From NCBI RefSeq assembly GCF_005849285.1, contig NZ_CP040517.1, positions 2,796,501 to 2,860,500 on the forward strand: a stretch of 64,000 bases of DNA, read 5' to 3'. The notes beneath the pieces were generated by a model, which did not search any database, was not told the DNA's origin, and was given only the letters and a program-made list of their open reading frames with translations. Source of the DNA: Luteithermobacter gelatinilyticus. Its GTDB lineage: Bacteria; Pseudomonadota; Alphaproteobacteria; Sphingomonadales; Emcibacteraceae. Made by a program: the position numbers and the translations under genes. Of this stretch, positions 12,073 to 25,889 are shown piece after piece; position 1 is the stretch's first letter; every line of letters starts with the position of its first letter.

Positions 12073-12133
12073 GCACGCCGCCGACAATGATGAACAAAAC
12101 GCCGTTATTTAAAATTTTAACGATTTGTACATT

Positions 12134-12157
12134 AGTCCTATCTAAAGTCCTATCTAA
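12134..12157. repeat. Tandem duplication, 2 x 12 bp
   Basis: The 12-mer AGTCCTATCTAA occurs twice in direct succession in the spacer between zapE and the first small plus-strand gene. It is one of several such microduplications in this window. Confidence 0.85.
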
Positions 12158-12255
12158 AATCAACCTCACCCAAACCGGCCTCGCCCAATCAGGGGCCGCA
12201 CCGGAATGAAAAAGCCCAACAGGCACCATAATCAATAACTGGAAAAGATCAAACC

Positions 12256-12468
12256 ATGAAAAAAATATTTGAAATCCCCGTCTATAATCAAGAAGTCCGT
12301 GATGCCGTGCGCGCCGGACGCTCCCACGGAGTGCTCGAAGACAGCTGGGCCGACATGCACCTGATCGAAATCCGCGCCCATACGGCCGATGAAGCGATGG
12401 AGATCTGCCGCCGTAAACATCCACAGAAAATGGGTTTTGTTCTAGGGGAAGCCGCCGAAAGTCTATGA
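12256..12468 (+). CDS. Small uncharacterised protein, copy 1 of a tandem pair
   Basis: This 70-residue protein is not recognised as a named family. It starts 8 bases after a GGAAAAG ribosome site, which supports real translation. It has no signal peptide or membrane span and is charged, with YNQEVRDAV near the start, a W-D pair at mid-protein, and EAMEICRRKHPQKMGFVLGE near the end. Hand alignment with the product of 12673-12894 gives 22 identities over 57 ungapped positions, so the two are diverged copies of one family. It runs divergently from zapE. No function is proposed. Confidence 0.7.
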   Translation: MKKIFEIPVYNQEVRDAVRAGRSHGVLEDSWADMHLIEIRAHTADEAMEICRRKHPQKMGFVLGEAAESL

Positions 12469-12672
12469 TGGCCTTAATATGATAGTGATTTCCGTATTGT
12501 AATGACGTCTTTTATTTTAGGGCGGCACAACGGCGCGTTCATATTTTCTTAAGCTTCTTTACCTAAATCATAGAGGGACCGCGTTTCCTCTCTCCCTGAC
12601 CAGACTTGGTTGCATATACATCAGAGGACACAACGGCAAAAAAATGTGTGATTAACCGGATAGCCACTGCTC

Positions 12673-12894
12673 ATGAACCGCTACGAAGTTGCTCTTTACA
12701 ATCAGGATGTGCGCGAGGCCTATGCCGATGGCAGGAAACACCCCAATTATGGTCCCGAATGGGGCGATTTGCGGTATCTAGAAGTGGAGGCCGAAACCGA
12801 GGAGGAGGCCCTAAAACTCATCCGTAAACACCATCCGGAACGTCAGGGGTTTATCATCCGGGACGTCATTCTGATCAAAGAATTCGTCGAATAA
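12673..12894 (+). CDS. Small uncharacterised protein, copy 2 of a tandem pair
   Basis: This 73-residue soluble, acidic protein is related to the product of 12256-12468. Shared features are YNQ(D/E)VR, GR(K/S)H, W-x-D, A-x-T-x-x-EA, and a C-terminal HP-x-x-x-GF motif. The two genes are in the same direction, 204 bp apart. The ribosome site here is weak. Conservation of pattern between the copies, with changes that are mostly conservative, argues that both are coding. The family is not recognised. The shape (a short beta-alpha-beta pattern rich in charged residues) would fit a small binding or modulator protein, but this is a guess. Confidence 0.68.
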   Translation: MNRYEVALYNQDVREAYADGRKHPNYGPEWGDLRYLEVEAETEEEALKLIRKHHPERQGFIIRDVILIKEFVE

Positions 12895-13001
12895 CAGCAT
12901 CATCTTTAAATTTTCCAGTGCGTTTTGCAAATTGAGGGACGCGTCATCAGCCATGCGTCATGGTTTTCAATCCGTAGAGCATGCACCATCTCAAACATCG
13001 C

Positions 13002-13039
13002 CATAGATTTTAGGCGGGGCCATAGATTTTAAGCGGGGC
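13002..13039. repeat. Tandem duplication, 2 x 19 bp
   Basis: Two adjacent 19-base units, CATAGATTTTAGGCGGGGC and CATAGATTTTAAGCGGGGC, differ at one base. They lie downstream of the GFA-family gene in the 218-bp spacer after the small-protein pair. No other feature is seen in that spacer. Confidence 0.85.
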
Positions 13040-13112
13040 GCAGCGATTCATAGGTGAGCGCAGTATGGATTGCGTCGCTGCTGGCGCGCCTCGCAATGAG
13101 GGTTCTATCCTT

Positions 13113-13553
13113 TTACAAGTCACTCTGGATGAACACAACCGTTGCGATCCAGTTTTTTTTGCGCCGCGCCAATCTGTTCGTCCCCGCTTCCCCCTCATAA
13201 TCATGAAGGTGTTGCGGGGTCGCAATCCGCTCAGCCCCATCCAGCGTGTTGACATTCACAATGCCATAAAGGCGGCCATCCAATTCACATGTTACGACCG
13301 GCATCACCCCACAAGACCGGCAGAACATAAAATCCGCCGTCTTGTGGCCGAAACGATATCGGCCCAACAGGGTCACATCTTTGACGCTGATCTCCAGCCG
13401 CCCAGACGGGTTGCTGGCATAACACGCCCCCTGCCTGACACAAAAGCTGCACCCGCATTGCCGCGGCACCACCGCATCCAGGTCTTGTGACGTCGCGAAG
13501 TCATAGCGAATGGCGCCGCAATGACAGCCGCCAGGATGAATAAATTCTGTCAT
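13113..13553 (-). CDS. GFA/CENP-V-family zinc protein
   Basis: Small zinc-binding protein of the GFA (glutathione-dependent formaldehyde-activating enzyme-like) fold, 146 residues from the preferred ATG. Zinc ligands are visible as GCHCGAIRY, CGCSFC and FCRSCG. Most members are annotated by fold only; the formaldehyde role is proven for few, and no formaldehyde genes are nearby. A GTG at 13577 would add eight residues, but the ATG at 13553 starts right before the conserved domain. It lies downstream of the M28 peptidase on the same strand, separated by a spacer with a triplicated 14-mer. Confidence 0.8.
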   Translation of the reverse strand: MTEFIHPGGCHCGAIRYDFATSQDLDAVVPRQCGCSFCVRQGACYASNPSGRLEISVKDVTLLGRYRFGHKTADFMFCRSCGVMPVVTCELDGRLYGIVNVNTLDGAERIATPQHLHDYEGEAGTNRLARRKKNWIATVVFIQSDL

Positions 13554-13614
13554 GCCGTTCAGTCTAGGAGGCTTCACCAGAAAAGGGAAGCCTTATCGGC
13601 CTCCCTCCCAGGCC

Positions 13615-13656
13615 TTTGGCTGGCGGATTTTGGCTGGCGGATTTTGGCTGGCGGAT
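13615..13656. repeat. Tandem triplication, 3 x 14 bp
   Basis: TTTGGCTGGCGGAT occurs three times without change or gap (13615-13628, 13629-13642, 13643-13656). It lies between the M28 peptidase stop and the GFA gene start, so it could affect transcription or translation of the latter. Confidence 0.92.
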
Positions 13657-13667
13657 TTGCGGGCCGT

Positions 13668-15101
13668 TTATTTGCGAAAGTCCACACCGCTTTCCGCGGC
13701 GATATAGGCAAACACCGTATAAATGGCGGTGTTGATTTTCATGGCTTCCCGATCCACCTTGTCCAGCGTGTCGTTTTCCGTATGGTGATAATCAAAATAC
13801 AGGCTGCCGTCCGGGCTGAAATTTACGGCCGGCATACCCGCTTCCCCCAGGACGCTGAGATCAGACTGTCCTTTGGCCGTATTATCCGGATTCAGTGACA
13901 CGCCGAGCGGGGCCAGAATCCCGGCCATCGCCCGAATGGTATTCAGGGCCTCAGGCCCCACCCCGGGCCGCATGTCATAAATCCTCCCTACACCGAAATC
14001 CCATTCCGCGCCGATCACATGGTGATCCAATTCGTCCCGATGCCGTTCAAGATACTGCTTAGCCCCCACCAGGCCCACTTCCTCGGCGGCAAACAACACC
14101 ACTCGGATGGACCGTTTCGGCCGTTCCGGCAGATCCAGGATATGCCGCGCCGCCGCCAGGGTGATGCCAACCCCGATACCGTCATCCACGGCGCCGGTCC
14201 CCACATCCCAACTGTCCAGATGCGCCCCCAGCACTACAAAATCCTCCGGAGTTTCCCGGCCCGTCACCTCACCGATCACATTGGCCGTTTTGATCACGGT
14301 CTGATCATGCCGCTCTGAGGTCTGACGCAGGCGCACCACCACCGGCTTGCCCCGGCTGAGTTGAGCCATCAATATGTCCGCATCCGGATTCGACAGCGCC
14401 GCGGCAGGGATTTTTCCCGCATCAGCGTCATATTTCACACTGCCTGTATGGCCCAGACGGTTATCGTCGGTCCCGATCGACCGAATCAGCAGCGCCAGCG
14501 CGCCCTTGCGGGCCGCCTCACTCGCCCCCTTGGTCCGGGCCACCACCGCTGGCCCATAGCCGGAGCCGTCGATCCGGCGTTCCATCCGGTAAGAAATAAA
14601 GGCGATTTTCCCTTCAAGACTGCCCGGCGCGGCCGCCTGCAATGCCGCGTAAGAAGGAAAATGCACAATTTCGGCCTTAAGGCCCGCCTCGGGCGTGCCC
14701 ACAGACCCTCCCAGCGCAATGGCCACCAGTTTTTGCGGATAAGGCGCGATAATTTCGGCCTCAATCTCTCCCCTTTCCCACATCACATGGGTGACTTCCT
14801 CGGTCCATACCCGGTCAAACCCCAACTCTTTCATTTTGGCCACCGCCCATTCCACGCCTTTGCGATCGCCCGGCGTGCCCACCAGCCGCGGCCCTACCTC
14901 CGTGGTCAGTTGCTCATCCAACCGGTAAGACAAATCCGATTTCAATACGGTGTCGCGCAATCGGATTGCGGTGGCCTGCATCTCCTCGGACACCCCGTCC
15001 ACACGCCCCTCAGAGAGCGCCGGGTTGACAGTTAACACACAAAACATCCCCAGTATGGAAAGGCCCAGTATGGAAAGGACACCCTGAAATACTCTGTTCA
15101 C
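13668..15101 (-). CDS. Secreted M28-family zinc peptidase
   Basis: Exported metallopeptidase of 477 residues with an N-terminal signal peptide (about 30 residues, ending near NPALSEG). A PA-type insert domain lies in the middle, followed by the M28 catalytic core: GAHLDSWDVGTGAVDDG with the first zinc ligands, FAAEEVGLVGAKQYL with the catalytic Glu, and YFDYHHTENDT with the last His ligand. Family members remove N-terminal residues or split dipeptides from peptides in the periplasm; the substrate here is unknown. A 15-base duplication inside the signal peptide repeats LSILG in frame. It is divergent from the malyl-CoA lyase-like gene. Confidence 0.9.
   Translation of the reverse strand: MNRVFQGVLSILGLSILGMFCVLTVNPALSEGRVDGVSEEMQATAIRLRDTVLKSDLSYRLDEQLTTEVGPRLVGTPGDRKGVEWAVAKMKELGFDRVWTEEVTHVMWERGEIEAEIIAPYPQKLVAIALGGSVGTPEAGLKAEIVHFPSYAALQAAAPGSLEGKIAFISYRMERRIDGSGYGPAVVARTKGASEAARKGALALLIRSIGTDDNRLGHTGSVKYDADAGKIPAAALSNPDADILMAQLSRGKPVVVRLRQTSERHDQTVIKTANVIGEVTGRETPEDFVVLGAHLDSWDVGTGAVDDGIGVGITLAAARHILDLPERPKRSIRVVLFAAEEVGLVGAKQYLERHRDELDHHVIGAEWDFGVGRIYDMRPGVGPEALNTIRAMAGILAPLGVSLNPDNTAKGQSDLSVLGEAGMPAVNFSPDGSLYFDYHHTENDTLDKVDREAMKINTAIYTVFAYIAAESGVDFRK
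15049..15078. repeat. In-frame duplication, 2 x 15 bp, in a signal peptide
   Basis: CCCAGTATGGAAAGG occurs twice in succession inside the signal-peptide codons of the M28 peptidase, giving LSILG-LSILG in the hydrophobic core. A partial third copy (CCCAGTATG) lies just upstream of the start codon. Confidence 0.88.
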
Positions 15102-15145
15102 TCTACTTATCCCCAGTATGATGATTGGTTATGCCGTCATTCTTA

Positions 15146-15182
15146 GAAATTGTTTCTTGAAATTATTTCATGAAATAATTTC
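15146..15182. promoter_or_regulatory. Three regularly spaced GAAATWRTTTC palindromes, putative operator array
   Basis: Three 11-base near-palindromes occur at 15146-15156 (GAAATTGTTTC), 15159-15169 (GAAATTATTTC) and 15172-15182 (GAAATAATTTC), starting every 13 bases. The last two together form a perfect 24-base palindrome. They lie in the 304-bp region between the divergent M28 peptidase and malyl-CoA lyase-like genes. This fits a multi-dimer regulator site controlling one or both genes. The regulator is unknown. A TATAAT-like box near 15377 and an AAGGA before the plus-strand gene are the only other signals seen in this region. Confidence 0.6.
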
Positions 15183-15405
15183 TGGCCGCAGTCTTGCGCA
15201 TCTTGGAGGGAAGTTCAACCTTTTCCCCGCGCCGCCGAAACAGTTTTTGACCCTCCAGGATCAACGCAAAGTTCAACGCAGACGCAAAAAAGACTTTTTG
15301 CGCAGTGCAGCATCTTGCCAGCTCTGCCAAAAAAGTTTATAACCATGTTTCAAAAGTTGCGGCGATAATGAAATTTTATAATACCAAAAGGATTGTGAGA
15401 AAACC

Positions 15406-16299
15406 ATGACCGATCAGCCCAAAGCCCCCTCCCGCCCCCGAAGAAGCATGCTGTATATGCCGGGTTCCAACCCGCGCGCCCTGGAAAAAGCCAAAACCCT
15501 GGCCGCAGACAGTCTGATCCTGGATCTGGAGGATGCGGTGGCCGTGGATGCCAAAGCAGAAGCCCGGCGCCTGGTCGCGGAAGCCGTCAAGGGCGGGGGC
15601 TACGGTCCACGCGAGCTGATCATCCGGATTAACGGCCTGGACACCCCATGGGGGTTGGAAGATCTTCAGGCGGCCTGCGCGGCGGGGCCTGACGCTATTC
15701 TGCTGCCCAAGGTGGAAAGCGCGGAAATGGTCCAGCATGCGGAAGCGTTGATGACACAATACGGCGCGCCGGCCCGCACCACCATCTGGTGTATGATGGA
15801 AACCCCGCGCGGCATTCTCCGGGCCGAGGAAATCGCCGGCGCCAGCAAACGGCTTGGCGGTTTTGTGATGGGCACCAACGACCTGACCAAGGAACTTCAG
15901 GCGCGGCATACCCCGGACCGCCTCCCGCTGATTCCGAGCTTTGCCCTGTGCCTGCTCGCGGCCCGGGCCGAAGGTCTCGCCATCATTGACGGCACCTTCA
16001 CAGATCTGAATGACGATGAGGGGCTGATCGCCTCCTGCCGGCAGGGTGTGGAACTGGGGTTTGATGGCAAGACCTTGTTGCATCCCAAACAGCTGGCGGC
16101 CGCCAACGAGGCCTTCGCCCCGAGTGATGCGGAAATCGAGCAGGCCCGACGCATCATTGAGGCTTTTGAAAAAGCCGAAACCGAAGGCAAGGGTGTGGTG
16201 CTGCTGGATGGCAAACTTGTGGAAAACCTGCATGTCGCCGAAGCCAAAAATCTTCTGGCTAAAGCGGAGATGATTGCCAGACTGAACGCGGAGGCCTGA
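15406..16299 (+). CDS. HpcH/HpaI-CitE family lyase: malyl-CoA lyase or malyl-CoA thioesterase-like
   Basis: This 297-residue protein has the CitE-type barrel: LYMPGSNPRALEKA at the start, LILDLEDAV with the metal-binding acidic pair, IIRINGLDTPWG, and GFVMGTNDLTKEL. The C-terminal GFDGKTLLHPKQL is typical of the family. Relatives split malyl-CoA or beta-methylmalyl-CoA into glyoxylate and an acyl-CoA (Mcl1), or hydrolyse (S)-malyl-CoA (Mcl2). The short N-terminus and MGTNDLTKEL look closer to Mcl2/CitE as recalled from Rhodobacter. It is followed after two bases by a mesaconyl-CoA hydratase-like gene, supporting a role in C4/C5 acyl-CoA conversion. Confidence 0.82.
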   Translation: MTDQPKAPSRPRRSMLYMPGSNPRALEKAKTLAADSLILDLEDAVAVDAKAEARRLVAEAVKGGGYGPRELIIRINGLDTPWGLEDLQAACAAGPDAILLPKVESAEMVQHAEALMTQYGAPARTTIWCMMETPRGILRAEEIAGASKRLGGFVMGTNDLTKELQARHTPDRLPLIPSFALCLLAARAEGLAIIDGTFTDLNDDEGLIASCRQGVELGFDGKTLLHPKQLAAANEAFAPSDAEIEQARRIIEAFEKAETEGKGVVLLDGKLVENLHVAEAKNLLAKAEMIARLNAEA

Positions 16300-16301
16300 T
16301 C

Positions 16302-17399
16302 ATGAGCCAGAATGACCCCAAAAAGAATGAACCCAAAACTTTTGCCAAAACCTTTGAAGGCAATTATTTTGAGGATTTCCAGGTCGGACAGGAACTTATC
16401 CATGCCACCCCGCGCACTGTGACAGCCGGCGACATGGCCCTGTACACCGCGCTGTATGGCAACCGGTTTGCCGTACAATCCTCGACGGAATTCGCCCGCA
16501 GCTGCGGCCTTACCCAGGCGCCGGCGGACGATCTTTTGACCTTTCATATTGTCTTCGGCAAGACCGTGCCCGACATTTCCATCAATGCGGTGGCCAATCT
16601 GGGGTATGCCGACTGCCGGTTTCTCAACCCGGTCTATCCAGGCGACACACTTTCCGCCACCAGCCAGGTCATCGGACTTAAAGAAAATTCCAGCGGCAAG
16701 AACGGCAATGTCTATGTGCGTACCACCGGATACAATCAGCGGGGGGAAAAGGTTCTGGAATATGTGCGCTGGGTGATGGTCAATAAAAAATCTCCCCAAA
16801 GCCCGGCCCCCAAAACGGAAATTCCCGACCTGCCCGACACGGTGGCGGCCAGCGACCTGACCATGCCGCCGGGACTGACGTTCAGATCCTATGACCGGGA
16901 CCTTGCCGGATCTCCCTATGTCTGGGAAGATTATGATATTGGCGAGAAAATCAATCATGTGGATGGCATGACCGTGGAAGCGGCGGACCATATGATGGCA
17001 ACCCGATTGTATCAGAACACGGCCAAGGTGCATTTCAACCAGCACATGATGAAAGACGGACGTCTTGGTGAACGCATCGTCTATGGCGGACATGTGATTT
17101 CCCTAGCCCGGGCCCTAAGCTACAACGGCCTCGGCAACGCCCAGTTTGTCGCCGCCATCAATGCCGGACGTCACGTCAATCCCTGTATTGCCGGGGATAC
17201 GGTCTATGCCTGGACCGAAATCCTGGACAAAGCGGAACTGAGCGGCAGCCCCGATGTGGGCGCGCTTCGTGTGCGGCTTGTGGCCGTCAAGGACCGCAAC
17301 CCTGCCGATTTCCCCTATAAGGATAAGGATGGCAAATATGATCCTTCGGTGTTGCTGGATTTGGATCTGTGGGTGCTGATGCCGCGGGCGACAAATTAG
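16302..17399 (+). CDS. MaoC-like double hotdog dehydratase, mesaconyl-CoA (2-methylfumaryl-CoA) hydratase-like
   Basis: At 365 residues it holds two MaoC hotdog halves. The first begins at NYFEDFQVGQELIHATPRTV and the second at VWEDYDIGEKINHVDGMTVE, each starting with the typical F/Y-x-D-F/Y-x-x-G pattern. Length and architecture match Mch, which hydrates mesaconyl-CoA to beta-methylmalyl-CoA in the ethylmalonyl-CoA pathway. The product would be a substrate of the lyase-like gene only two bases upstream, so they form one operon. No crotonyl-CoA carboxylase/reductase or mutase gene is in this window, so the full pathway is not shown. Confidence 0.8.
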   Translation: MSQNDPKKNEPKTFAKTFEGNYFEDFQVGQELIHATPRTVTAGDMALYTALYGNRFAVQSSTEFARSCGLTQAPADDLLTFHIVFGKTVPDISINAVANLGYADCRFLNPVYPGDTLSATSQVIGLKENSSGKNGNVYVRTTGYNQRGEKVLEYVRWVMVNKKSPQSPAPKTEIPDLPDTVAASDLTMPPGLTFRSYDRDLAGSPYVWEDYDIGEKINHVDGMTVEAADHMMATRLYQNTAKVHFNQHMMKDGRLGERIVYGGHVISLARALSYNGLGNAQFVAAINAGRHVNPCIAGDTVYAWTEILDKAELSGSPDVGALRVRLVAVKDRNPADFPYKDKDGKYDPSVLLDLDLWVLMPRATN

Positions 17400-17558
17400 G
17401 CTTTATCCGGTTTTGCTGTCTCTCTTTTGCTCTTTATTGGGCTCTATTGAGGGTGGCAATATTTCTGCCGTATTTTCCATATAGGGTCCTTTCCCGGACT
17501 CATCCATAACAACACATACAACATGGCTTTGAAGCCGGGAAAGGGTAAGGAAATGTTT

Positions 17559-17954
17559 ATGGCAAGATTCTTGAGGATTATTCTGCTGTCCATCACTGTC
17601 CTGTCTTTCCTGACAGGGGTGTCCAGGGCGGAAATCCTGGCCACGGACCAGGTCGTGGAAAAATACGCCACCCAGGCGGACAAGGCCCAGATCACCGCCC
17701 TGCTGAAGCGGGCGGATGTGCGCCAACAACTTAAGGAATATGGGGTAGAGCCGGAAGAAGCCGAAAAGCGCATCGCGGCACTTTCGGATGAGGAAATCCG
17801 TCAGATTGCCGACCAGCTGGAAAGTGAACCGGCCGGGGCCGGCGAGCTGGGGACGGTGCTGGGCGTGGCGCTGACCGTCTTCCTGGTCTTGCTGGTGACC
17901 GATATTCTGTGCCTCACTGATGTCTTCAGCTTCACCCGCTGCGCCCGCCGCTAG
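17559..17954 (+). CDS. PA2779-family exported protein
   Basis: Small protein of 131 residues with an N-terminal signal peptide (MARFLRIILLSITVLSFL, cleavage after GVSRA). The central region is charged and helical (VEKYATQADKAQITALLKRADVRQQL), and a single C-terminal membrane span (LGVALTVFLVLLVTDILCL) is followed by a short tail. This matches the PA2779 family of unknown function, which is usually next to a PA2778-type peptidase, as here (7 bp apart). The ATG at 17559 is 8 bases after GGTAAGG; ATG 17553 is an alternative. Confidence 0.75.
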   Translation: MARFLRIILLSITVLSFLTGVSRAEILATDQVVEKYATQADKAQITALLKRADVRQQLKEYGVEPEEAEKRIAALSDEEIRQIADQLESEPAGAGELGTVLGVALTVFLVLLVTDILCLTDVFSFTRCARR

Positions 17955-17961
17955 GGCGGTG

Positions 17962-18903
17962 ATGCCGACATTTCCATTCTGGCGTGGTATCGTGCTGATG
18001 GCTTTCAGCGCGATGCTAAGCGCTTGTTCCTCCATACCAACTACGGACCCCGCCCTGCTGTCCCATCTGCCGCAGACCGGGCGGGCGGAGGCCGTTCCTT
18101 TCTACCCGCAGGAAGAAAAATATTGCGGCCCGGCCACACTGGCGGCGGTTCTGGAATGGACCGGCAAGAGAATCAGCCAACACAAGGTGGCCCACGAGGT
18201 GTATACTCCCGGCGCCGATGGCACCTTCCGACACGACATGATTGCCGCCGCACGCCGGCATGGCCGTCTGGCGGTGCCGGTTCGCAGTCTGCCGGCGCTG
18301 CTGGAAGAAGTCGCCGGGGGAACACCGGTCATCGTGTTCCAGAATCTGGGTCTGAGCTGGTGGCCCCGCTGGCATTATGCAGTGCTGACCGGTTATGACC
18401 TTGGCAGGGAAAACGTCATTCTCAATTCCGGGGATGAGCAGAATCGCGTGACGGGCCTCACACTGTTTGAACGCACTTGGCGACGGGGCGGCAGCTGGGC
18501 ACTGGTGGTCCTGCCGCCCGACAGACTGCCCGCCACGGCAAGCATTTATGACGTCATGACAGCTGCAGCCGGCCTGGAACGGGCGGGGCGACTGGACGCG
18601 GCGGCCACCGCCTATCAGGCCATCGCCCGGCGCTGGCCCGGCCACTGGTTGGCCCTGTTGGGGCTGGGCAACATACACTACCGCCAGGGCGACTATGACG
18701 CCGCCGAAACCTCTTATAGGGCCGCTCTCGCCCTTGATCCCACAGTGGCGGAAGTATGGAACAATCTGGCATATGCGTTAAAAAAGCAGGGCCGAACGTC
18801 GGAAGCCCACGCCGCCGCACAACAGGCCGTCAAATATGGTCAGGAAAGCCGCTATGACGCCACCTTGCAGGAAATGCAGCCGGTCGCCGATTCCCCACAA
18901 TAA
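17962..18903 (+). CDS. PA2778-family cysteine peptidase-like lipoprotein with TPR repeats
   Basis: Protein of 313 residues from the ATG at 17962, 7 bp after the upstream stop. The N-terminus is a lipoprotein signal (lipobox LSAC, Cys22). A papain-like C39-type domain follows: YCGPATLAAVLEW with the nucleophile Cys, WHYAVLTGYD with the His, and NSGDEQNR. The C-terminal 100 residues are TPR-like (GLGNIHYRQGDYDAAETSY, NNLAYALKKQGR). C39-like peptidases trim leader peptides or process exported proteins; the target here is unknown. An in-frame ATG at 17920 would overlap the previous gene and add residues before the signal, so it is less likely. Confidence 0.8.
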   Translation: MPTFPFWRGIVLMAFSAMLSACSSIPTTDPALLSHLPQTGRAEAVPFYPQEEKYCGPATLAAVLEWTGKRISQHKVAHEVYTPGADGTFRHDMIAAARRHGRLAVPVRSLPALLEEVAGGTPVIVFQNLGLSWWPRWHYAVLTGYDLGRENVILNSGDEQNRVTGLTLFERTWRRGGSWALVVLPPDRLPATASIYDVMTAAAGLERAGRLDAAATAYQAIARRWPGHWLALLGLGNIHYRQGDYDAAETSYRAALALDPTVAEVWNNLAYALKKQGRTSEAHAAAQQAVKYGQESRYDATLQEMQPVADSPQ

Positions 18904-18980
18904 TACAGACCGACCTGTCTATTTTTGAAATCTTTTTGCCCCAAATTTACAAAATAAGCAAAAAAATCACAAAATCTCTA

Positions 18981-18991
18981 AGAATCATTCT
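18981..18991. promoter_or_regulatory. Putative iron-responsive (Irr/Fur-like) element upstream of sdhC
   Basis: AGAATCATTCT, an AGAA-N3-TTCT inverted repeat, lies 117 bases before the sdhC start in an AT-rich stretch. It resembles the core of the iron control element bound by Irr in Alphaproteobacteria and also half of a Fur box. The sdh genes encode iron-sulfur and heme proteins, so iron control would be sensible. The match is short and unproven. Confidence 0.35.
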
Positions 18992-19108
18992 CATAAAGGC
19001 AGGAAGCCTCTTGCTCTTGGGCGCCGAAATGACTAAGACAATTTTTCAGGGTATTCATCTTAACACATAAGACGGTCAACTCATCTTATTTGAGGAAGGG
19101 AGTAGCAG

Positions 19109-19495
19109 ATGGCTCGAGTACAGCGGCCCCTGTCGCCGCATTTGCAAGTTTACAAATGGGGCCTGCATATGGTCCTGTCCATTCTGCACCGGGCAACAGG
19201 TGCGGCGCTTGGAGCGGGCACACTTCTTTTGGCCTGGTGGCTGATTGCCCTGGCCAGCGGGCCGGAACAGTATGATCGGTTCCTCTCCTGCATGGAAAGC
19301 ATACCGGGACGAGTGGTGCTGCTGGGCTTTACCTGGGCCTTAATGCTGCATTTGTGCAACGGCATCCGCCATCTGTTCTGGGACATGGGTAAAGGTTTTG
19401 AACTTGCCACCGTCTCCCGCTCCAATCAGGCGGTACTGCTGGGCTCCATTCTGCTGACCGGGCTCGCCTGGGCCTTCGGATACGGCCTGATCTAA
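19109..19495 (+). CDS. sdhC: Succinate dehydrogenase, cytochrome b556 subunit
   Basis: Membrane anchor subunit of respiratory complex II, 128 residues with three hydrophobic spans. It starts RPLSPHLQVYKW as in the family, and SILHRATGAAL lines the quinone site. HLCNGIRHLFWD holds the conserved histidines (His81 and His88), one of which should ligate heme b. The ribosome site GAGGAAGGGAG is strong. It is the first gene of sdhCDAB, with the probable promoter in the 205 bp upstream. Confidence 0.95.
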   Translation: MARVQRPLSPHLQVYKWGLHMVLSILHRATGAALGAGTLLLAWWLIALASGPEQYDRFLSCMESIPGRVVLLGFTWALMLHLCNGIRHLFWDMGKGFELATVSRSNQAVLLGSILLTGLAWAFGYGLI

Positions 19496-19508
19496 GGGAG
19501 AAGAAAAG

Positions 19509-19883
19509 ATGAGTTTAAGAACACCTCTGGGCAAGGTTCGCGGTCTCGGCTCCGCCAAAAGCGGGACCCATCACTGGTGGATGCAAAAGGTCTCCGCCGT
19601 GGCGTTGATCCCGCTCACGGTCTGGTTCGTGGCTTCCATAGTGCAGATGACCGGCGCCGATTATGAAATGGCCGTGAGCTGGCTGTCTTCCCCCATTCCG
19701 GCGGTACTGATGATCCTGTTTATCAGCACGGCACTCTATCATTTGAAGCTGGGGCTGCAGGTGATCGTGGAAGATTACGTCCATACCGAAGGCCTGAAAC
19801 TGGCATGCCAGATGGCCATCACCTTTGGCTGCGTTCTTGTCGCCGTCGCCGCCATCTTCTCCGTTCTCAAGGTGGCTTTATAA
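19509..19883 (+). CDS. sdhD: Succinate dehydrogenase, hydrophobic membrane anchor subunit
   Basis: Second membrane anchor of complex II, 124 residues with three spans. It begins with the alphaproteobacterial pattern [20 protein letters not shown], then [32 protein letters not shown] contains the heme-ligand His78 and the Asp-Tyr pair near the quinone site. It lies 13 bp after sdhC with a GGGAGAAGAAAAG ribosome site. Confidence 0.94.
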
Positions 19884-19908
19884 GACAGATCATTATTTAG
19901 AGGGTATT

Positions 19909-21696
19909 ATGAGCAAGGCATATGAACTGACAGATCACGTCTATGACGCCATCGTCATCGGAGCCGGGGGATCCGGACTCCGGGCCGCCATGGGAATTGC
20001 CGAAGCCGGTCTCAAGACCGCCTGTATTTCCAAGGTCTTCCCCACCCGCTCCCACACCGTGGCCGCCCAGGGGGGCATCGCCGCATCGCTCGGCAATATG
20101 GGGCCGGACAAATGGCAATGGCATATGTATGACACCGTCAAAGGGTCCGATTGGCTGGGCGACCAGGACGCCATCGAATATATGGTGCGGGAGGCACCGC
20201 AGGCGGTATACGAATTGGAACATTTCGGGGTACCGTTCAGCCGTACCGAGGAAGGCAAAATCTATCAACGCCCCTTTGGCGGCATGACCACCGAATTTGG
20301 CGAGGGACCGCCCGCCCAGCGCACCTGCGCCGCCGCCGACCGGACCGGCCACGCCATGCTGCATTCGCTTTATCAGCAGTCCCTGAAATACGACACTGAC
20401 TTTTTTGTGGAATATTTCGCCATCGACCTGATCATGGTGGATGGCGAGTGCCGCGGCGTGATCGCGCTCGACATGAACACCGGCACCCTGCACCGTTTCA
20501 AGGCGCACATGACTGTGCTCGCCACCGGTGGGTACGGCCGCGCCTATTTTTCCGCCACCTCCGCCCATACCTGTACCGGTGATGGCGGCGGCATGGTGCA
20601 GCGTGCGGGCCTGCCGCTACAGGATCTGGAGTTTGTCCAGTTCCATCCGACCGGCATTTATGGCGCCGGCGTGCTGATTACCGAAGGCGCGCGCGGTGAA
20701 GGCGGCTATCTGGTGAACTCTGAAGGCGAACGCTTTATGGAACGTTATGCGCCCTCCGCCAAGGACCTGGCCAGCCGCGACGTGGTCAGCCGCTCCATGT
20801 CTTCCGAGATTCGCGAAGGCCGCGGGGTGGGGGAACACAAGGACCATATCTATCTGCACCTGGATCATCTGGATCCGGACATTCTGGCCGAGCGCCTGCC
20901 GGGCATTTCCGAAAGCGCCCGTATTTTCGCCGGTGTCGATGTGACCAAAGAACCGATCCCGGTGATCCCCACCGTGCATTATAATATGGGCGGCATTCCG
21001 ACCAACTATCATGCGGAAGTTCTGAACCCGACGCCGGATGATCCGGATCGGGTGGTGCCGGGCCTCATGGCCGTGGGCGAAGCCGCCTGTGTCTCCGTAC
21101 ATGGCGCCAACCGGTTGGGCTCCAACAGCCTGATCGACCTGGTGGTGTTCGGCCGTGCCGCCGCACTCAGGGTGGCCGAGCTGGTCAAACCGAACACGCC
21201 GCACAAACCGCTGCCGGACGACAATGCGGACCTTGCGCTCAGTCGCCTGGACAAATACCGCCATGCCAACGGCAGCATGCCCACCGCCCAGATCCGCGAC
21301 AAGATGCAGCGCACCATGCAGTCCAACTGCGCCGTGTTCCGCACCGCCGAGGTTCTGGAGGAAGGCAAGAAACTCATTGACGAAGTCTATGCCATGATGC
21401 CAGATGTGAAAACCTTCGACCGATCGCTGGTCTGGAACTCCGACCTTATCGAAACGCTGGAGCTGGAAAACCTGCTGCAACAGGCGGTGGTCACCATGCA
21501 CTGTGCAGAAAACCGCAAGGAAAGCCGCGGGGCGCATATGCATGAAGACTATCCCGAACGCAATGATAAGGAGTGGATGAAACACACCGTCGCCTGGCTT
21601 GAGGATGGCAAAGTCAGAATCGATTACCGCCCGGTTCACGATTTCACGCTGACCGAGGAAATCGACTACATCAAACCCAAGGCCCGTGTGTATTAA
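19909..21696 (+). CDS. sdhA: Succinate dehydrogenase, flavoprotein subunit
   Basis: Catalytic flavoprotein of complex II (succinate to fumarate), 595 residues. It shows the FAD-binding [20 protein letters not shown], the covalent-FAD histidine His49 in [10 protein letters not shown], the catalytic regions [17 protein letters not shown] and [16 protein letters not shown], and the C-terminal [14 protein letters not shown]-like segment (here [11 protein letters not shown]). An in-frame ATG at 19825 lies inside sdhD and is rejected; ATG 19909 has an AGAGGGT ribosome site and matches the family start. Confidence 0.96.
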
Positions 21697-21713
21697 GCGG
21701 AGGGAGAGGCAAT

Positions 21714-22496
21714 ATGGCAGAATTCAGACTTCCCGCAAATTCCCGGTATAAAAAAGGCAAAACCTGGAAAGCCCCCGAAGGCGCGACCAACATCAAACGG
21801 TTCAACATCTATCGCTGGAACGAGGATGACGGCGAAAATCCGCGCATTGACACCTATGAGGTGGACATGGACAAATGCGGGCCCATGGTGCTGGATGCGC
21901 TGATCAAGATCAAAAACGAGATTGACCCCACACTCACCTTCCGCCGCTCTTGCCGCGAAGGGGTGTGCGGATCCTGCGCCATGAATATCGGCGGCATGAA
22001 CACGCTGGCGTGCACCAAGGCGATCAGCGATTTCAAGGGCGATGTGAACATCTATCCGCTGCCGCATATGGATGTGGTCAAGGACCTGGTGCCGGATCTG
22101 ACCAATTTCTATGCGCAATATGCGTCCATCAAACCCTGGATGCAAACCCAGACCCCTGCGCCCAGCGGCCGCGAACGGCTGCAAAGCCGCGAGGACCGCG
22201 CCAAACTGGACGGGCTTTATGAATGCATCCTGTGTGCCAGCTGCTCCACCAGCTGCCCGAGCTACTGGTGGAACTCCGACCGCTATCTGGGCCCGGCGGT
22301 ACTCCTGCAGGCTTATCGCTGGCTGGTGGACAGCCGGGACGAAAATACCGGCGAACGACTGGATGCGCTGGAGGACCCTTTCCGGCTCTATCGCTGCCAC
22401 ACCATCATGAACTGCACCAATACCTGTCCCAAGGGCCTGAACCCGGCCAAGGCTATCGCCGAGATCAAGAAAATGATGGTTGAACGCCAGGGGTGA
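21714..22496 (+). CDS. sdhB: Succinate dehydrogenase, iron-sulfur subunit
   Basis: Electron-transfer subunit of complex II, 260 residues. All three cluster motifs are present: [16 protein letters not shown] for [2Fe-2S], [12 protein letters not shown] for [4Fe-4S], and [17 protein letters not shown] completing the [3Fe-4S] and [4Fe-4S] sites. It lies 17 bp after sdhA, with GGAGGGAGAGG as ribosome site, and is the last gene of the operon, followed by a strong terminator. Confidence 0.96.
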
Positions 22497-22522
22497 GTCA
22501 AAATTCAGTGAGTCAAAATTCA
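22493..22522. repeat. Tandem duplication, 2 x 15 bp, over the sdhB stop codon
   Basis: GTGAGTCAAAATTCA occurs twice in succession (22493-22507 and 22508-22522). The first copy contains the sdhB stop, so the second is a non-coding duplicate. Confidence 0.88.
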
Positions 22523-22532
22523 GACAACGTCA

Positions 22533-22560
22533 AAGCCGGGCCTCGACCAAGGTCCGGCTT
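22533..22560 (+). terminator. Terminator of sdhCDAB
   Basis: An 11-bp stem with one G:U pair (AAGCCGGGCCT / AGGTCCGGCTT) has a 6-base loop and is followed by six T. It is a classic intrinsic terminator, 37 bases after the sdhB stop. Confidence 0.88.
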
Positions 22561-22680
22561 TTTTGATGCTGAAGATACTGTCTTTCCCTCATCCTTCTAT
22601 TCTCGTCGCGCCCGACTCCCCCTCCCGTCATTGCCGTGCAGACGGCAATCCATGAAGGAAAAATGGGGAAAATGGGGAAA

Positions 22681-22761
22681 ATGGGGACAGTATACTATTT
22701 ATAATCTGGAAAATGGGGGAAAACAGAGTATATAAGATTATAAATAGTATACTGTTCCCAT
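22681..22761. repeat. Long palindromic repeat, left copy
   Basis: Two 27-base arms (22681-22707 and 22735-22761) pair at 26 of 27 positions around a 27-base loop. The core is GGGGACAGTATACTATTT. A 9-base unit (AAATGGGGA) repeated three times precedes it. The same core recurs in the palindrome at 23862-23940, on the other side of the DUF2971 gene. Confidence 0.9.
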
Positions 22762-22787
22762 TGCTGGACTTCCTTGAATGCTTGAAA

Positions 22788-23762
22788 TTATTGCTGCTGC
22801 TGTAATTCGTCTATGTAAAAATACTGGTTCAGTACGTTATAAAACTGTGTTGGCACATTTGTTTCATATTGTACGAACACAGCGGGCTTTCCGTCCCTTT
22901 CTTTATAGGTGCTGAAATCCACTAAAACTATTTTTTCACAGGAACTATCGCGGCGAACTATCTCAGCGGCTTTTGTCAAATACTCATAGAACGGCTTGTA
23001 CTCTTCTTTGATATCCTCCAGACCCGGTATGGCGGACTCTTCAATAGGCGCTAAGTGTTCTATTCGCTCTCCATCAATAGCCGTATCATATTCAAGGTCT
23101 CGCGCCACCATTGAATAAGAGTTGTCAGAAAACTCTATCTTATAATATCTAAGATCACGCCCTTTTAGTTTTCCGCGAACTTCCTGAATGAATGATCCTT
23201 CACACCTGCATCCGAAATATATTCCCGTCATAGCAGCAGGAGCATAGTGGTTTTTTCCGGCCGTTCTAGTAATTATTCTTACTTCCTTTTCATGCGCCCA
23301 GCGGCTAGACTTTGTTCCTATCATCTTGCCAAGAATTGCCGTTTCATTTTGGGTCTGAAACATATCGTCAAATACGATTTTTTGAGGTTCAGGATGATAG
23401 GCTACATCAACTATATTCCATGAAGTTCTGGCTTCATGGACAAGTCTGTTCAAATCATATTCTATACAAAACCCCTTATGACCTCCGGCATAGTAGGCCC
23501 ACATCAATTCATCAAGCGGTGTCCGGCTTAGTGAATATACGCCAACGGTATGTCGCATTTTTGTAAGATTATCGAATTCGGTTTCTACGTCCTTAGCCCC
23601 TAAAGCCTTAAAAAGGATTCTAGCATCATTTTCATTAACGTAAGCCTCAGATGGATCATTCAACTGATCGGCTGTAGATGCCCAAAAATAATTGCTCGCA
23701 ATGCTTTCCAGATCACGCGCCATGATTTCCGGGCTACCGCCTCTGTATTTATAAACTTTCAT
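22788..23762 (-). CDS. DUF2971 domain protein
   Basis: Soluble protein of 324 residues with the DUF2971 pattern: KVYKYRG at the start, FWASTADQLNDPSEAY, VYSLSRTPLDELMWAYYAGGHKGFCIEYD, and SSRWAHEKEVRII. The function of the family is unknown; members often lie in variable regions and near defence genes. The gene is visibly richer in A and T than its neighbours, with many AAA and ATT-type codons, and is flanked by long palindromes with a shared core, suggesting acquisition by transfer. It has no signal peptide or membrane span. The C-terminus ends in a run of four glutamines. Confidence 0.85.
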   Translation of the reverse strand: MKVYKYRGGSPEIMARDLESIASNYFWASTADQLNDPSEAYVNENDARILFKALGAKDVETEFDNLTKMRHTVGVYSLSRTPLDELMWAYYAGGHKGFCIEYDLNRLVHEARTSWNIVDVAYHPEPQKIVFDDMFQTQNETAILGKMIGTKSSRWAHEKEVRIITRTAGKNHYAPAAMTGIYFGCRCEGSFIQEVRGKLKGRDLRYYKIEFSDNSYSMVARDLEYDTAIDGERIEHLAPIEESAIPGLEDIKEEYKPFYEYLTKAAEIVRRDSSCEKIVLVDFSTYKERDGKPAVFVQYETNVPTQFYNVLNQYFYIDELQQQQ

Positions 23763-23861
23763 GGTGAATCCAAAAATAGCTCTGTTCTTTGGTATGCTTG
23801 ATTATAATCTAAAATAGATGATGAAAAATACACCCAAAAGAACGCTTAAAGGAAAAATGGA

Positions 23862-23940
23862 GGAAAAATGGGGCCAGTATACTATTTTTTATCTTATCCG
23901 CTCCGTTCTTGGTTAAATAGTATACTGTCCCCATTTTTCC
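23862..23940. repeat. Long palindromic repeat, right copy
   Basis: Arms 23862-23887 and 23915-23940 (26 bases each) pair at 25 of 26 positions around a 27-base loop. The core matches the left copy at 22681-22761, but the loop sequence differs. The region from 23763 to 23861 holds the AT-rich DUF2971 upstream sequence, with no other feature seen. Confidence 0.9.
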
Positions 23941-24006
23941 ATTTTTACATGACGTACTGGCCATAACTTATAAGTCTCTCCCCTTGACGGACCGTTTACC
24001 CACAAA

Positions 24007-24036
24007 AAGGGCTCTTCCGACAACGGAAGAGCCCTT
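24007..24036 (-). terminator. Terminator of the M2 peptidase gene
   Basis: A perfect 13-bp stem (AAGGGCTCTTCCG / CGGAAGAGCCCTT) has a 4-base loop. On the minus strand a T-run follows it. It lies 47 bases after the M2 peptidase stop. Confidence 0.9.
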
Positions 24037-24083: not shown

Positions 24084-25889
24084 TTACCAACCGCAGTTGC
24101 GGTCCTTGTTCTGCTCATCCAGCCAGGCTTTGAGCGGCGCAAAGTATTCCAGTACCGCGCTGCCGTCCATTTCACGGGTGCCGATAAAGGCTTCCAGCGC
24201 ATCCTGCCAGGGCTTGCTCTGGCCCATTTCCAGCATGGCGTTGAGTTTTTCGCCCACTTCCTTGTTGTTGTAAATAGTGCAACTGTGCAGCGGCCCTTCA
24301 AATCCGGCCATTTCGCAAGCCGTCTTGTGGAACTGGAACTGCAGGATATGAGCGAGGAAATAGCGCATATAGGGCGTATTGCCCGGAATGTGGTATTTGG
24401 CGCCCGGATCAAAGGCCTCAGGCGTCCGCTCTGCCGGTGCAGCTACCCCCTGATAGGCTTCGCGCAGTTCCCACCAGCCCCGGTTATAGTCTTCTGGGTT
24501 CAGCTCGCCGTTAAAGACTTTCCAGCGCCACTGGTCCACCAACAGGCCGAACGGCAGGAACGCCACCTTGTCCAGGGCCCGGCGCAGAAGAAGCCCGATA
24601 TCGCCTTCCGGTCCCGGCACTTTGTCAATGAGCCCCACCTGTTTCAGATATTCCGGGGTGATGCTGAGCGCGATGGTATCCCCGATGGCCTCGTGGAACC
24701 CGTCATGGGCGCCGCCCTGATACAATACGCTCTGATCCTTATAGGCGCGCTGGTAAATATTGTGCCCCAGTTCGTGATGGATGGTTTCATAATCTTCGGC
24801 CGTGATGGTGGTGCACATCTTGATACGGATGTCTTCCTTGCCGTCAATATTCCAGGCGCTGGCGTGGCACTGCACTTCCCGGTCCCGCGGTTTTTTAATC
24901 AGCGAACGTTCCCAGAATGTCTGCGGCAGGGGCTCAAAGCCCAGCGAGGTGAAGAAATTCTCCCCCGCCTTGACCATCTGAACCTCATCATAACCTTTTT
25001 CTTTCAGCCGTTCGGTGAGGTCATATCCCACATCGCTTTCTTCCGGCGCCACCAGGGGATAGATATTGCCCCATTGCTGCGCCCACATATTGCCCAGAAG
25101 ATGCGCCGGAATCGGGCCGTCCTGAGGGACCACATCGGTGCCATACTGTTCGCCCAGCTTCGCGCGCACATGACAGTGCAGGGCATCATACAACGGTTTG
25201 ACCTGACCCCAGAGCCGGTCGGCTTCCTTACGGAAATCATCCGCCGGCATATCGTATCCGGCCCGCCACATGGCGCCCACATCCTGATAGCCCAGCTCGC
25301 GCGCCCCTTCATTGGCGATGTCCACCATCCGCGCATATTTTTCCTTCATGGACGGGGAGACGGTCCGCCAGCCTTCCCAAGCCTTGCGCAACTCCGCCTC
25401 ATCCCGGGAATTAGCCATCAGCTCGGTCAACTCGCCCAGAGTGCGGCCTTCGGGGTCCTTGCCGGTGGCATACATACTGTCCAGTTCGGCGGTAATGGTC
25501 GCCAGTTCCTTATTGGCTTCCGGATCGCTCGGCGCGGGCAGGGTAATCCCCTGTTTGATGATTTCCAGCTTACGCCGGGTATCCGGGTCAAGCTCCAGAT
25601 CGTTAAACTTTTTGGCTTCATTGGCGAATTTGACCGCCAGAGCCGTCATGTCCGCGCCGACCTTGGCGACCAGCGCATTGGTATCTACGGTCATGAAATT
25701 GGCCTGAACCCAGTAGGCCCGCGCCGTATGGGGGCCCTTTTCTTCATATTCCTTTTCCACCATCGCCACAAAGGCTTTGGCGTCTTCGGCCGTGACCGCC
25801 TTGCTTTCGGCCTCTCTTTCCCCCTCCGGTGAACAGGCCGCCACAAACAGCGCAATGGCCGCGGTGCCGGCCAGAAGTGTTTTCCTCAT
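24084..25889 (-). CDS. M2-family peptidyl-dipeptidase (ACE-like), lipoprotein
   Basis: Zinc metallopeptidase of 601 residues related to angiotensin-converting enzyme, which removes C-terminal dipeptides. The N-terminus is a lipoprotein signal with lipobox VAAC (MRKTLLAGTAAIALFVAACS). The zinc site is IHHELGHNIYQ, followed by GGAHDGFHEAIGDTIALS, whose Glu supplies the third ligand as in ACE. It should be anchored in the periplasm or outer membrane and degrade imported peptides. It is on the same strand as the DUF885 protein, each with its own terminator. Confidence 0.92.
   Translation of the reverse strand: MRKTLLAGTAAIALFVAACSPEGEREAESKAVTAEDAKAFVAMVEKEYEEKGPHTARAYWVQANFMTVDTNALVAKVGADMTALAVKFANEAKKFNDLELDPDTRRKLEIIKQGITLPAPSDPEANKELATITAELDSMYATGKDPEGRTLGELTELMANSRDEAELRKAWEGWRTVSPSMKEKYARMVDIANEGARELGYQDVGAMWRAGYDMPADDFRKEADRLWGQVKPLYDALHCHVRAKLGEQYGTDVVPQDGPIPAHLLGNMWAQQWGNIYPLVAPEESDVGYDLTERLKEKGYDEVQMVKAGENFFTSLGFEPLPQTFWERSLIKKPRDREVQCHASAWNIDGKEDIRIKMCTTITAEDYETIHHELGHNIYQRAYKDQSVLYQGGAHDGFHEAIGDTIALSITPEYLKQVGLIDKVPGPEGDIGLLLRRALDKVAFLPFGLLVDQWRWKVFNGELNPEDYNRGWWELREAYQGVAAPAERTPEAFDPGAKYHIPGNTPYMRYFLAHILQFQFHKTACEMAGFEGPLHSCTIYNNKEVGEKLNAMLEMGQSKPWQDALEAFIGTREMDGSAVLEYFAPLKAWLDEQNKDRNCGW

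Follow-up and report, generated by a model that had tools for sequence, protein, structure and literature searches.

The 64,000-nt window analyzed here is positions 2796501-2860500 of contig C1, the single contig of the 3,145,891-bp genome of Luteithermobacter gelatinilyticus (denoted G000). Between sdhB and a gene for an M2-type peptidase (name judged from sequence), it contains an AT-rich insert of 1.29 kb that carries a single gene, encoding a DUF2971 protein, with a palindrome on each side. The features of the locus are as follows (window coordinates):

13060-13100, minus strand: CGTC-type repeat near the left inversion breakpoint, in opposite orientation to the one at 22626 (sequence)
13113-22496, plus strand: block of sdh genes, inverted with respect to both flanks relative to genomes G001 and G010, with the insert at its right end
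21714-22496, plus strand: sdhB
22626-22658, plus strand: CGTC-type repeat at the right inversion breakpoint, adjoining the insert; likeness to CGTC REPs (PMC3733652) judged by eye
22656-23948, unstranded: whole insert, comprising tails, two palindromes and the DUF2971 gene
22656-22679, plus strand: outer left tail of GGAAAATGGGG-type units (sequence)
22680-22762, unstranded: left palindrome, 28-nt arms and 27-nt loop, inner part chimeric
22788-23762, minus strand: DUF2971 gene, 324 aa, matching PADLOC PDC-S31; ADP-ribosyltransferase-like fold weakly predicted
23862-23940, unstranded: right palindrome, 26-nt arms and 27-nt loop, a complete copy in reverse orientation
24084-25889, minus strand: M2-type peptidase gene

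The base composition of the insert is clearly foreign: its GC content is 40%, compared with 57% for the window, and the GC3 of the DUF2971 gene is 0.38, compared with 0.75 for sdhB and 0.70 for the peptidase gene, in agreement with the first-pass annotation of this DNA, which had described an AT-rich DUF2971 gene. No other open reading frame of at least 90 aa was found within 22656-23948. A/G-rich tails made of GGAAAATGGGG units lie outside the palindromes, and similar tails are present beside other genomic copies. Because of these tails, the insert, first placed at 22681-23934, is slightly larger, spanning about 22656-23948. It had also been placed between two terminators: terminator-like hairpins are visible by eye on both sides, for sdhB at about 22536-22566 and for the peptidase gene at about 24006-24036, but neither is listed by a simple terminator scan. 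A perfect 15-bp tandem duplication (GTGAGTCAAAATTCA) at 22493-22522 begins at the sdhB stop codon.

Near-perfect hairpins, as reported previously, flank the gene on each side: the arms of the left palindrome (22680-22707 and 22735-22762) and those of the right palindrome (23862-23887 and 23915-23940) are 96% complementary. As single-stranded DNA, both palindromes fold far better than shuffled sequences, on both strands (z from -8.4 to -10.9), and none of the shuffled sequences folded as well as either of them. With up to 3 mismatches allowed, the core GGGGACAGTATACTAT matches the window four times, compared with 0.14 expected. The shared core and the perfectly inverted outer ends noted in the first pass are both present, the perfect pair comprising the outermost 22 nt (22680-22701 and 23914-23935); given that both palindromes are copies of one sequence, such a pair arises automatically. 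In the copies inspected, the foot of the hairpin reads AATGGGGACAG or a close variant, which rules out classical GTAG REPs, and the GT[AG]G tetranucleotide is absent 5' at the foot. Several copies adjoin tandem feet of the form GGGGACAG-GAAAAAAT-GGGGACAG, suggestive of repeated insertion beside the foot. The left palindrome of the window resembles a chimera in which a GGAAAATGGGGG piece connects two similar halves, so that more than one event is implied for the left border.

The palindrome family and its Y1 transposase

The 18-mer GGGGNCAGTATACTATTT has 15 matches in the genome at up to one mismatch, compared with none for the reversed 18-mer used as a control. The core occurs at four loci besides the window, among them both ends of a Y1 transposase gene, with palindromes at 714.8 and 716.5 kb on either side of this gene. 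The other loci are two solo palindromes (871578-871648 and 2650528-2650590) and a palindrome with a half copy (1468026/1469326). The transposase gene (714897-715568, with the Y1_Tnp match at 714939-715259), located 2.1 Mb from the insert on the contig, is the only Y1/RAYT gene of G000; the Y1-type RAYT transposase for which the first-pass annotation proposed a search is thus encoded in this genome, with the palindrome core at its ends. Given that this sole Y1 gene lies elsewhere and that DUF2971 is the only open reading frame inside the insert, the latter can be at most a non-autonomous relative.

The transposase contains the motifs NHVH, LWQ and YVELNP and matches PF01797 (42 bits) and the NCBIfam model REP_Tyr_transpos (82.6 bits, cut-off 80). 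Sequences beginning with GGGGACAGTATA are present at the ends of the transposase gene in G000, G007, G015, G002 and G103, and the protein is 224-234 aa long. We considered the IS200/IS605 group (Y1 subclass 1.1), characterized by a Y---Q motif and a length of about 150 aa, and rejected it given the length of the protein and its YVELNP motif. TIRYT transposases are described as surrounded by long inverted repeats with GGGGWSAS, forming TIRtrons (PMC3733652), and are placed in Y1 subclass 2.1 (PMC6006769). They have an HuH motif N-H-[VFY]-H and a Y motif Y--LNP, and a C-terminal helix-turn-helix-like domain is typical of the subclass. By its motifs and the GGGGACAG foot, the system formed by the transposase and the palindromes fits the TIRYT (subclass 2.1) kind. 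The palindromes, initially taken to be REP-like, fit the GGGGWSAS inverted repeats of the TIRYT type (PMC3733652, PMC6006769).

The pairing of palindromes in the genome is non-random. Among the ten repeat clusters of G000, there are four adjacent pairs with members no more than 1.5 kb apart, compared with 0.04 expected under random placement and 0.08 in a model with 2800 intergenic slots; without the 5' flank of the transposase, there are three close pairs compared with 0.03-0.06 expected (P about 2e-5 or less). The half site at 3023521, which counts among these clusters, falls inside a coding gene and is probably a chance match; its retention in the permutation count makes the test conservative. 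The pair at L019 3007-4345 (G000:C1 about 1468006-1469344) encloses an AT-rich open reading frame of 291 aa without a Pfam match, in an RHS-like region. This pair is weak: one border is a half palindrome, and the left border, separated from the open reading frame by about 210 bp, falls within GC-rich RHS-like DNA. The transposase unit of G103 (L123) likewise lies in an RHS-like region.

Beyond these genomes, the exact 18-mer core was detected (L074-L118) in metagenome-assembled genomes (MAGs) titled Mariprofundaceae, Phycisphaerae, Planctomycetota and Rhodospirillales, a distribution suggesting that the element has spread horizontally, unless binning errors are responsible. One Mariprofundaceae transposase is 62% identical to that of G000. 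No palindrome core was found in viral contigs.

The transposase gene of G000 is part of a palindrome-bounded block of ~1.8 kb (L017 3285-5110, G000:C1 about 714784-716609), with the order palindrome, transposase, two half repeats, Phd antitoxin and PIN toxin, palindrome. This block lies between lrp and greA, which are convergent neighbors in many relatives. The gap between these genes is 1.88 kb in G000 vs 49-87 bp in the six relatives measured, and in none of the other 29 genomes did tblastn detect the transposase or the toxin-antitoxin genes next to greA. The repeats of G000 start about 10 bp past the lrp stop codon and end beside a terminator-like hairpin of greA. The short gap and the absence of these genes in relatives indicate that a repeat-bounded block including non-transposase genes entered a clean intergenic site, and we regard it, on this comparative evidence, as a genuine example of passengers with palindrome borders at a site that is empty in relatives. 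Although outside the window, it is the strongest case in favor of the cassette proposal made below. In a few relatives, the same gap holds other genes, without repeats; evidently, this site takes genes by other routes too.

The site downstream of sdhB in relatives

In the comparison with relatives that had been suggested for this locus, every family relative in which the site was seen lacks the DUF2971 gene there. A DUF2971 relative is encoded in only 1 of the 31 family relatives (30% identity). The site itself is occupied by repeats and other genes in several genomes. In G007, the order is repeat, transposase, partly masked repeat, small lipoprotein, repeats, sdhB; in G015, it is repeat, two small membrane open reading frames, palindrome, sdhB; and in G006 and G017, half repeats follow sdhB at 30-33 bp. 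Beside its transposase gene, G002 has a lipoprotein gene, with a third repeat on the far side. The distance from the sdhB stop codon to the repeat is 30-34 bp in the genus that includes G006, G007 and G017, in which this repeat may be inherited, and 187 bp in G000. The G007 MAG contains two sdhB ends (G007:C45 and G007:C7; L073 and L062), one of them a contig-end fragment, each followed by a repeat half, and therefore probably mixes two strains or species.

Because the insert of G000 lies at an inversion breakpoint, an exact empty site for it is not demonstrable with these genomes. Palindrome-driven inversion was considered and rejected: the left breakpoint (12087-13113) contains no palindrome of this family. 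The inverted CGTC-type repeats located at both breakpoints would be a sufficient and simpler cause.

The DUF2971 family and the predicted product

The protein encoded in the insert matches DUF2971 (PF11185; 37.3 bits, cut-off 22) and the PADLOC family PDC-S31, a phage-defence candidate (E = 2.4e-41), of which no mention was found in the literature searched. DUF2971 is sparse, being present in 13 of the 385 genomes of the class; across the domain, the nearest homolog is 34% identical. GGGGWSAS pairs are absent from all 12 of the other alphaproteobacterial DUF2971 loci. We therefore reject a link with the palindromes as a rule: there is no general association between this family and the repeats. 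The first-pass annotation had listed palindromes at sites unconnected with this gene family as an observation that would contradict its proposal; for the family, this is the case, but insertion of this particular copy is not refuted thereby.

The closest full-length relatives that we found are in proviruses (34-37% identity over about 300 residues), beside integrases. Two DUF2971 genes lie between an Ogr/Delta gene (P2-like) and an integrase in L224 (737-2570), and two more lie beside an integrase in L228 (1184-3017). The place next to a prophage integrase commonly holds accessory and defence genes. More distant relatives are found on enterobacterial plasmids and in SSU5-type phage records. 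In viral contigs, an alignment search identified 179 relatives; single-sequence patterns identified none.

A sequence search of the PDB with the DUF2971 profile gave no match. An AF2 model built from 33 sequences (alignment from viral contigs) has a pLDDT of 81. The best eight re-aligned PDB matches, covering residues 1-226, were to DarT, tRNA 2'-phosphotransferase and the ADP-ribosyltransferase CteC, with Z-scores of 5.0-7.0, in a range (below 8) where similarity can be fortuitous; Foldseek alone yielded nothing at E <= 0.001, with Hsp90-type structures on top of the insignificant matches. The predicted fold thus shows a weak resemblance, closest to DarT-like ADP-ribosyltransferases, which we treat as a lead given the Z-scores below 8 and the insignificant Foldseek result. 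The invariant residues W88, Y91, G97, K151, W155, E158, E160 and R162 are candidates for an active site. The gene probably encodes an effector of anti-phage defence whose fold would resemble that of ADP-ribosyltransferases, and such a fold would provide a biochemical hypothesis that could be tested for DUF2971, a family of unknown function.

Origin of the insert and comparison with known systems

We propose, at a confidence evenly balanced between acceptance and doubt, that the insert is a passenger cassette that relies on a transposase acting in trans. In this view, an AT-rich DUF2971 gene of horizontal origin has at each end a palindromic terminal repeat of a Y1 (HUH) transposase of the TIRYT (subclass 2.1) kind, and the only such enzyme of G000, encoded at 714.9 kb, would serve it in trans. 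Each palindrome would fold on single-stranded DNA and be recognized by the transposase, which would cleave the DNA next to the GGGGACAG foot of each outer arm; the strand between the feet would then be excised and joined into another single-stranded site, by analogy with IS200/IS605 transposition. We infer the cutting position, the action in trans and the arrival of the DUF2971 gene between the palindromes, rather than its later bracketing.

Several observations are consistent with this proposal. The insert shares its core with both ends of the only Y1_Tnp gene, its edges coincide with the palindromes, and its composition is foreign; close palindrome pairs exceed the random expectation, and the repeat-bordered block at lrp/greA occupies a site that is empty in relatives. 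Other genes lie by or between repeats after sdhB (G007, G015) and beside the transposase (G002), and the closest full-length DUF2971 relatives are adjacent to prophage integrases. Against it, each border is a whole palindrome, resembling a MITE-like unit, and not a single inverted end, the chimeric left border fits a series of separate insertions, the insert lies at an inversion breakpoint, and DUF2971 genes elsewhere are unflanked. The original suggestion of a non-autonomous insert movable by a RAYT in trans gains from the single Y1 gene with the core at its ends and from the absence of the DUF2971 gene in relatives, but not with respect to movement of the unit, for which no second or vacated copy was found. 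In an all-against-all comparison of 384 open reading frames near repeats in many genomes, no recurrent passenger family was identified between repeats, and the transposase was the only recurrent bracketed gene. Diverse, unrepeated passengers fit either a cassette system with a wide range of cargo or repeats that insert around anything present, and because both readings predict them, our confidence in the cassette proposal stays where it is. The 'Mobile mystery' A and B (Fic) pair was tried as a recurrent passenger and rejected, with repeats at 1 of 17 copies above the cut-off. That copy (L086/L169, from a Mariprofundales MAG) matches the TIGR models and has GGGGACAGTATACTAT repeats outside; its Fic pair lies between direct repeats resembling integron attC sites, and we discount it as support on both counts.

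As the main alternative, the DUF2971 gene could have arrived by ordinary horizontal transfer into a variable site, with MITE-like palindromes, which would favor short intergenic gaps and tend to reinsert beside existing copies, landing on either side later and the transposase never moving the gene. We consider this a substantial possibility, short of an even one: it would account for the solo palindromes, for the tandem GGGGACAG feet beside many copies, which suggest local reinsertion, for the lack of a recurrent passenger family and for the several accessory genes that occupy the sdhB and greA sites of relatives without repeats, but it leaves unexplained why pairing around single genes is far above random, why both edges of the insert are repeats and why the block with the transposase and the toxin-antitoxin genes is bordered by repeats at a site empty in relatives. 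Homologous recombination, in which palindromes already present after sdhB would have served as short homology for swapping or inserting DNA, possibly along with the rearrangement of the sdh block, appears improbable. At about 80 bp, the repeats are short, and they have diverged; those of the other genus lie at a different distance from sdhB, and the left breakpoint lacks a palindrome and has a CGTC-type inverted repeat that accounts for the inversion; these points outweigh, in our view, the sdhB-downstream repeats with different genes in G006, G007, G015 and G017 and the position of the insert at a breakpoint. That the palindromes are bidirectional terminators or mRNA hairpins of the flanking genes, unrelated to transposition, is highly improbable despite their strong folding and their location just outside coding regions: sdhB and the peptidase gene seem, by eye, to have terminator-like hairpins of their own, and the near-identical dispersed copies, among them those flanking the transposase gene and those in MAGs from other phyla, largely refute this explanation.

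Returning to the cassette proposal, a broader generalization, which we advance tentatively and consider rather unlikely, is that subclass 2.1 Y1 (HUH) transposases and GGGGWSAS palindromes form a cassette system in which the enzyme works on folded single strands to move and stack small accessory genes between palindromes. The cargo would comprise toxin-antitoxin pairs, ADP-ribosyltransferase-like defence genes and small lipoproteins, collected at hot spots, one of which would be the stretch following sdhB. Such a system would be a functional parallel to integron cassettes and their attC hairpins. RAYT and TIRYT transposases are usually viewed as domesticated, at most spreading short palindromes; the repeat-enclosed toxin-antitoxin and defence-like genes, at one site empty in relatives, suggest that subclass 2.1 enzymes may carry accessory genes too, and the repeat-bounded blocks offer a concrete substrate for testing these enzymes.

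TIRtrons (TIRYT; PMC3733652, PMC6006769) share with the present system a Y1 transposase that is encoded by a single-copy gene, is about 224-234 aa long and contains NHVH, WQ and YVELNP motifs, flanking long inverted repeats with GGGGWSAS, here GGGGACAG, and a dispersed repeat family of low to moderate copy number that also occurs as dimers. In contrast to TIRtrons, the repeat-bounded blocks described here include Phd/PIN toxin-antitoxin and DUF2971 genes; no description of passenger genes was found in the sections consulted of the two papers using the term TIRYT. The system is best regarded as Y1 repeats of the TIRYT type accompanied by passenger genes, the window holding a non-autonomous, putatively mobile example. 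REPtrons and REPINs, with RAYT transposases and GTAG REPs (PMC3116915, PMC8266576), similarly combine a Y1 RAYT with dispersed palindromes forming single-strand hairpins, but the family analyzed here lacks the GTAG foot; its near-perfect arms are 26-28 nt long and have a GGGG foot, its copies are few, and it is accompanied by passengers. The DUF2971 product matches both PADLOC PDC-S31 and Pfam DUF2971 (PF11185) in sequence; unlike the nearest full-length relatives, which are in proviruses, this copy lies in a palindrome-bounded insert. In mobile insertion cassettes (MIC/MICE), a passenger gene stands between terminal repeats belonging to an element that has its transposase elsewhere, and the DUF2971 gene shows this arrangement. 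The qnrS2 cassette (PMC5444012) likewise has a passenger between element ends, no internal transposase and presumed mobilization in trans; its ends are simple 22-bp inverted repeats, whereas those of the present, putatively mobile insert are whole palindromes of a single-strand Y1 enzyme.
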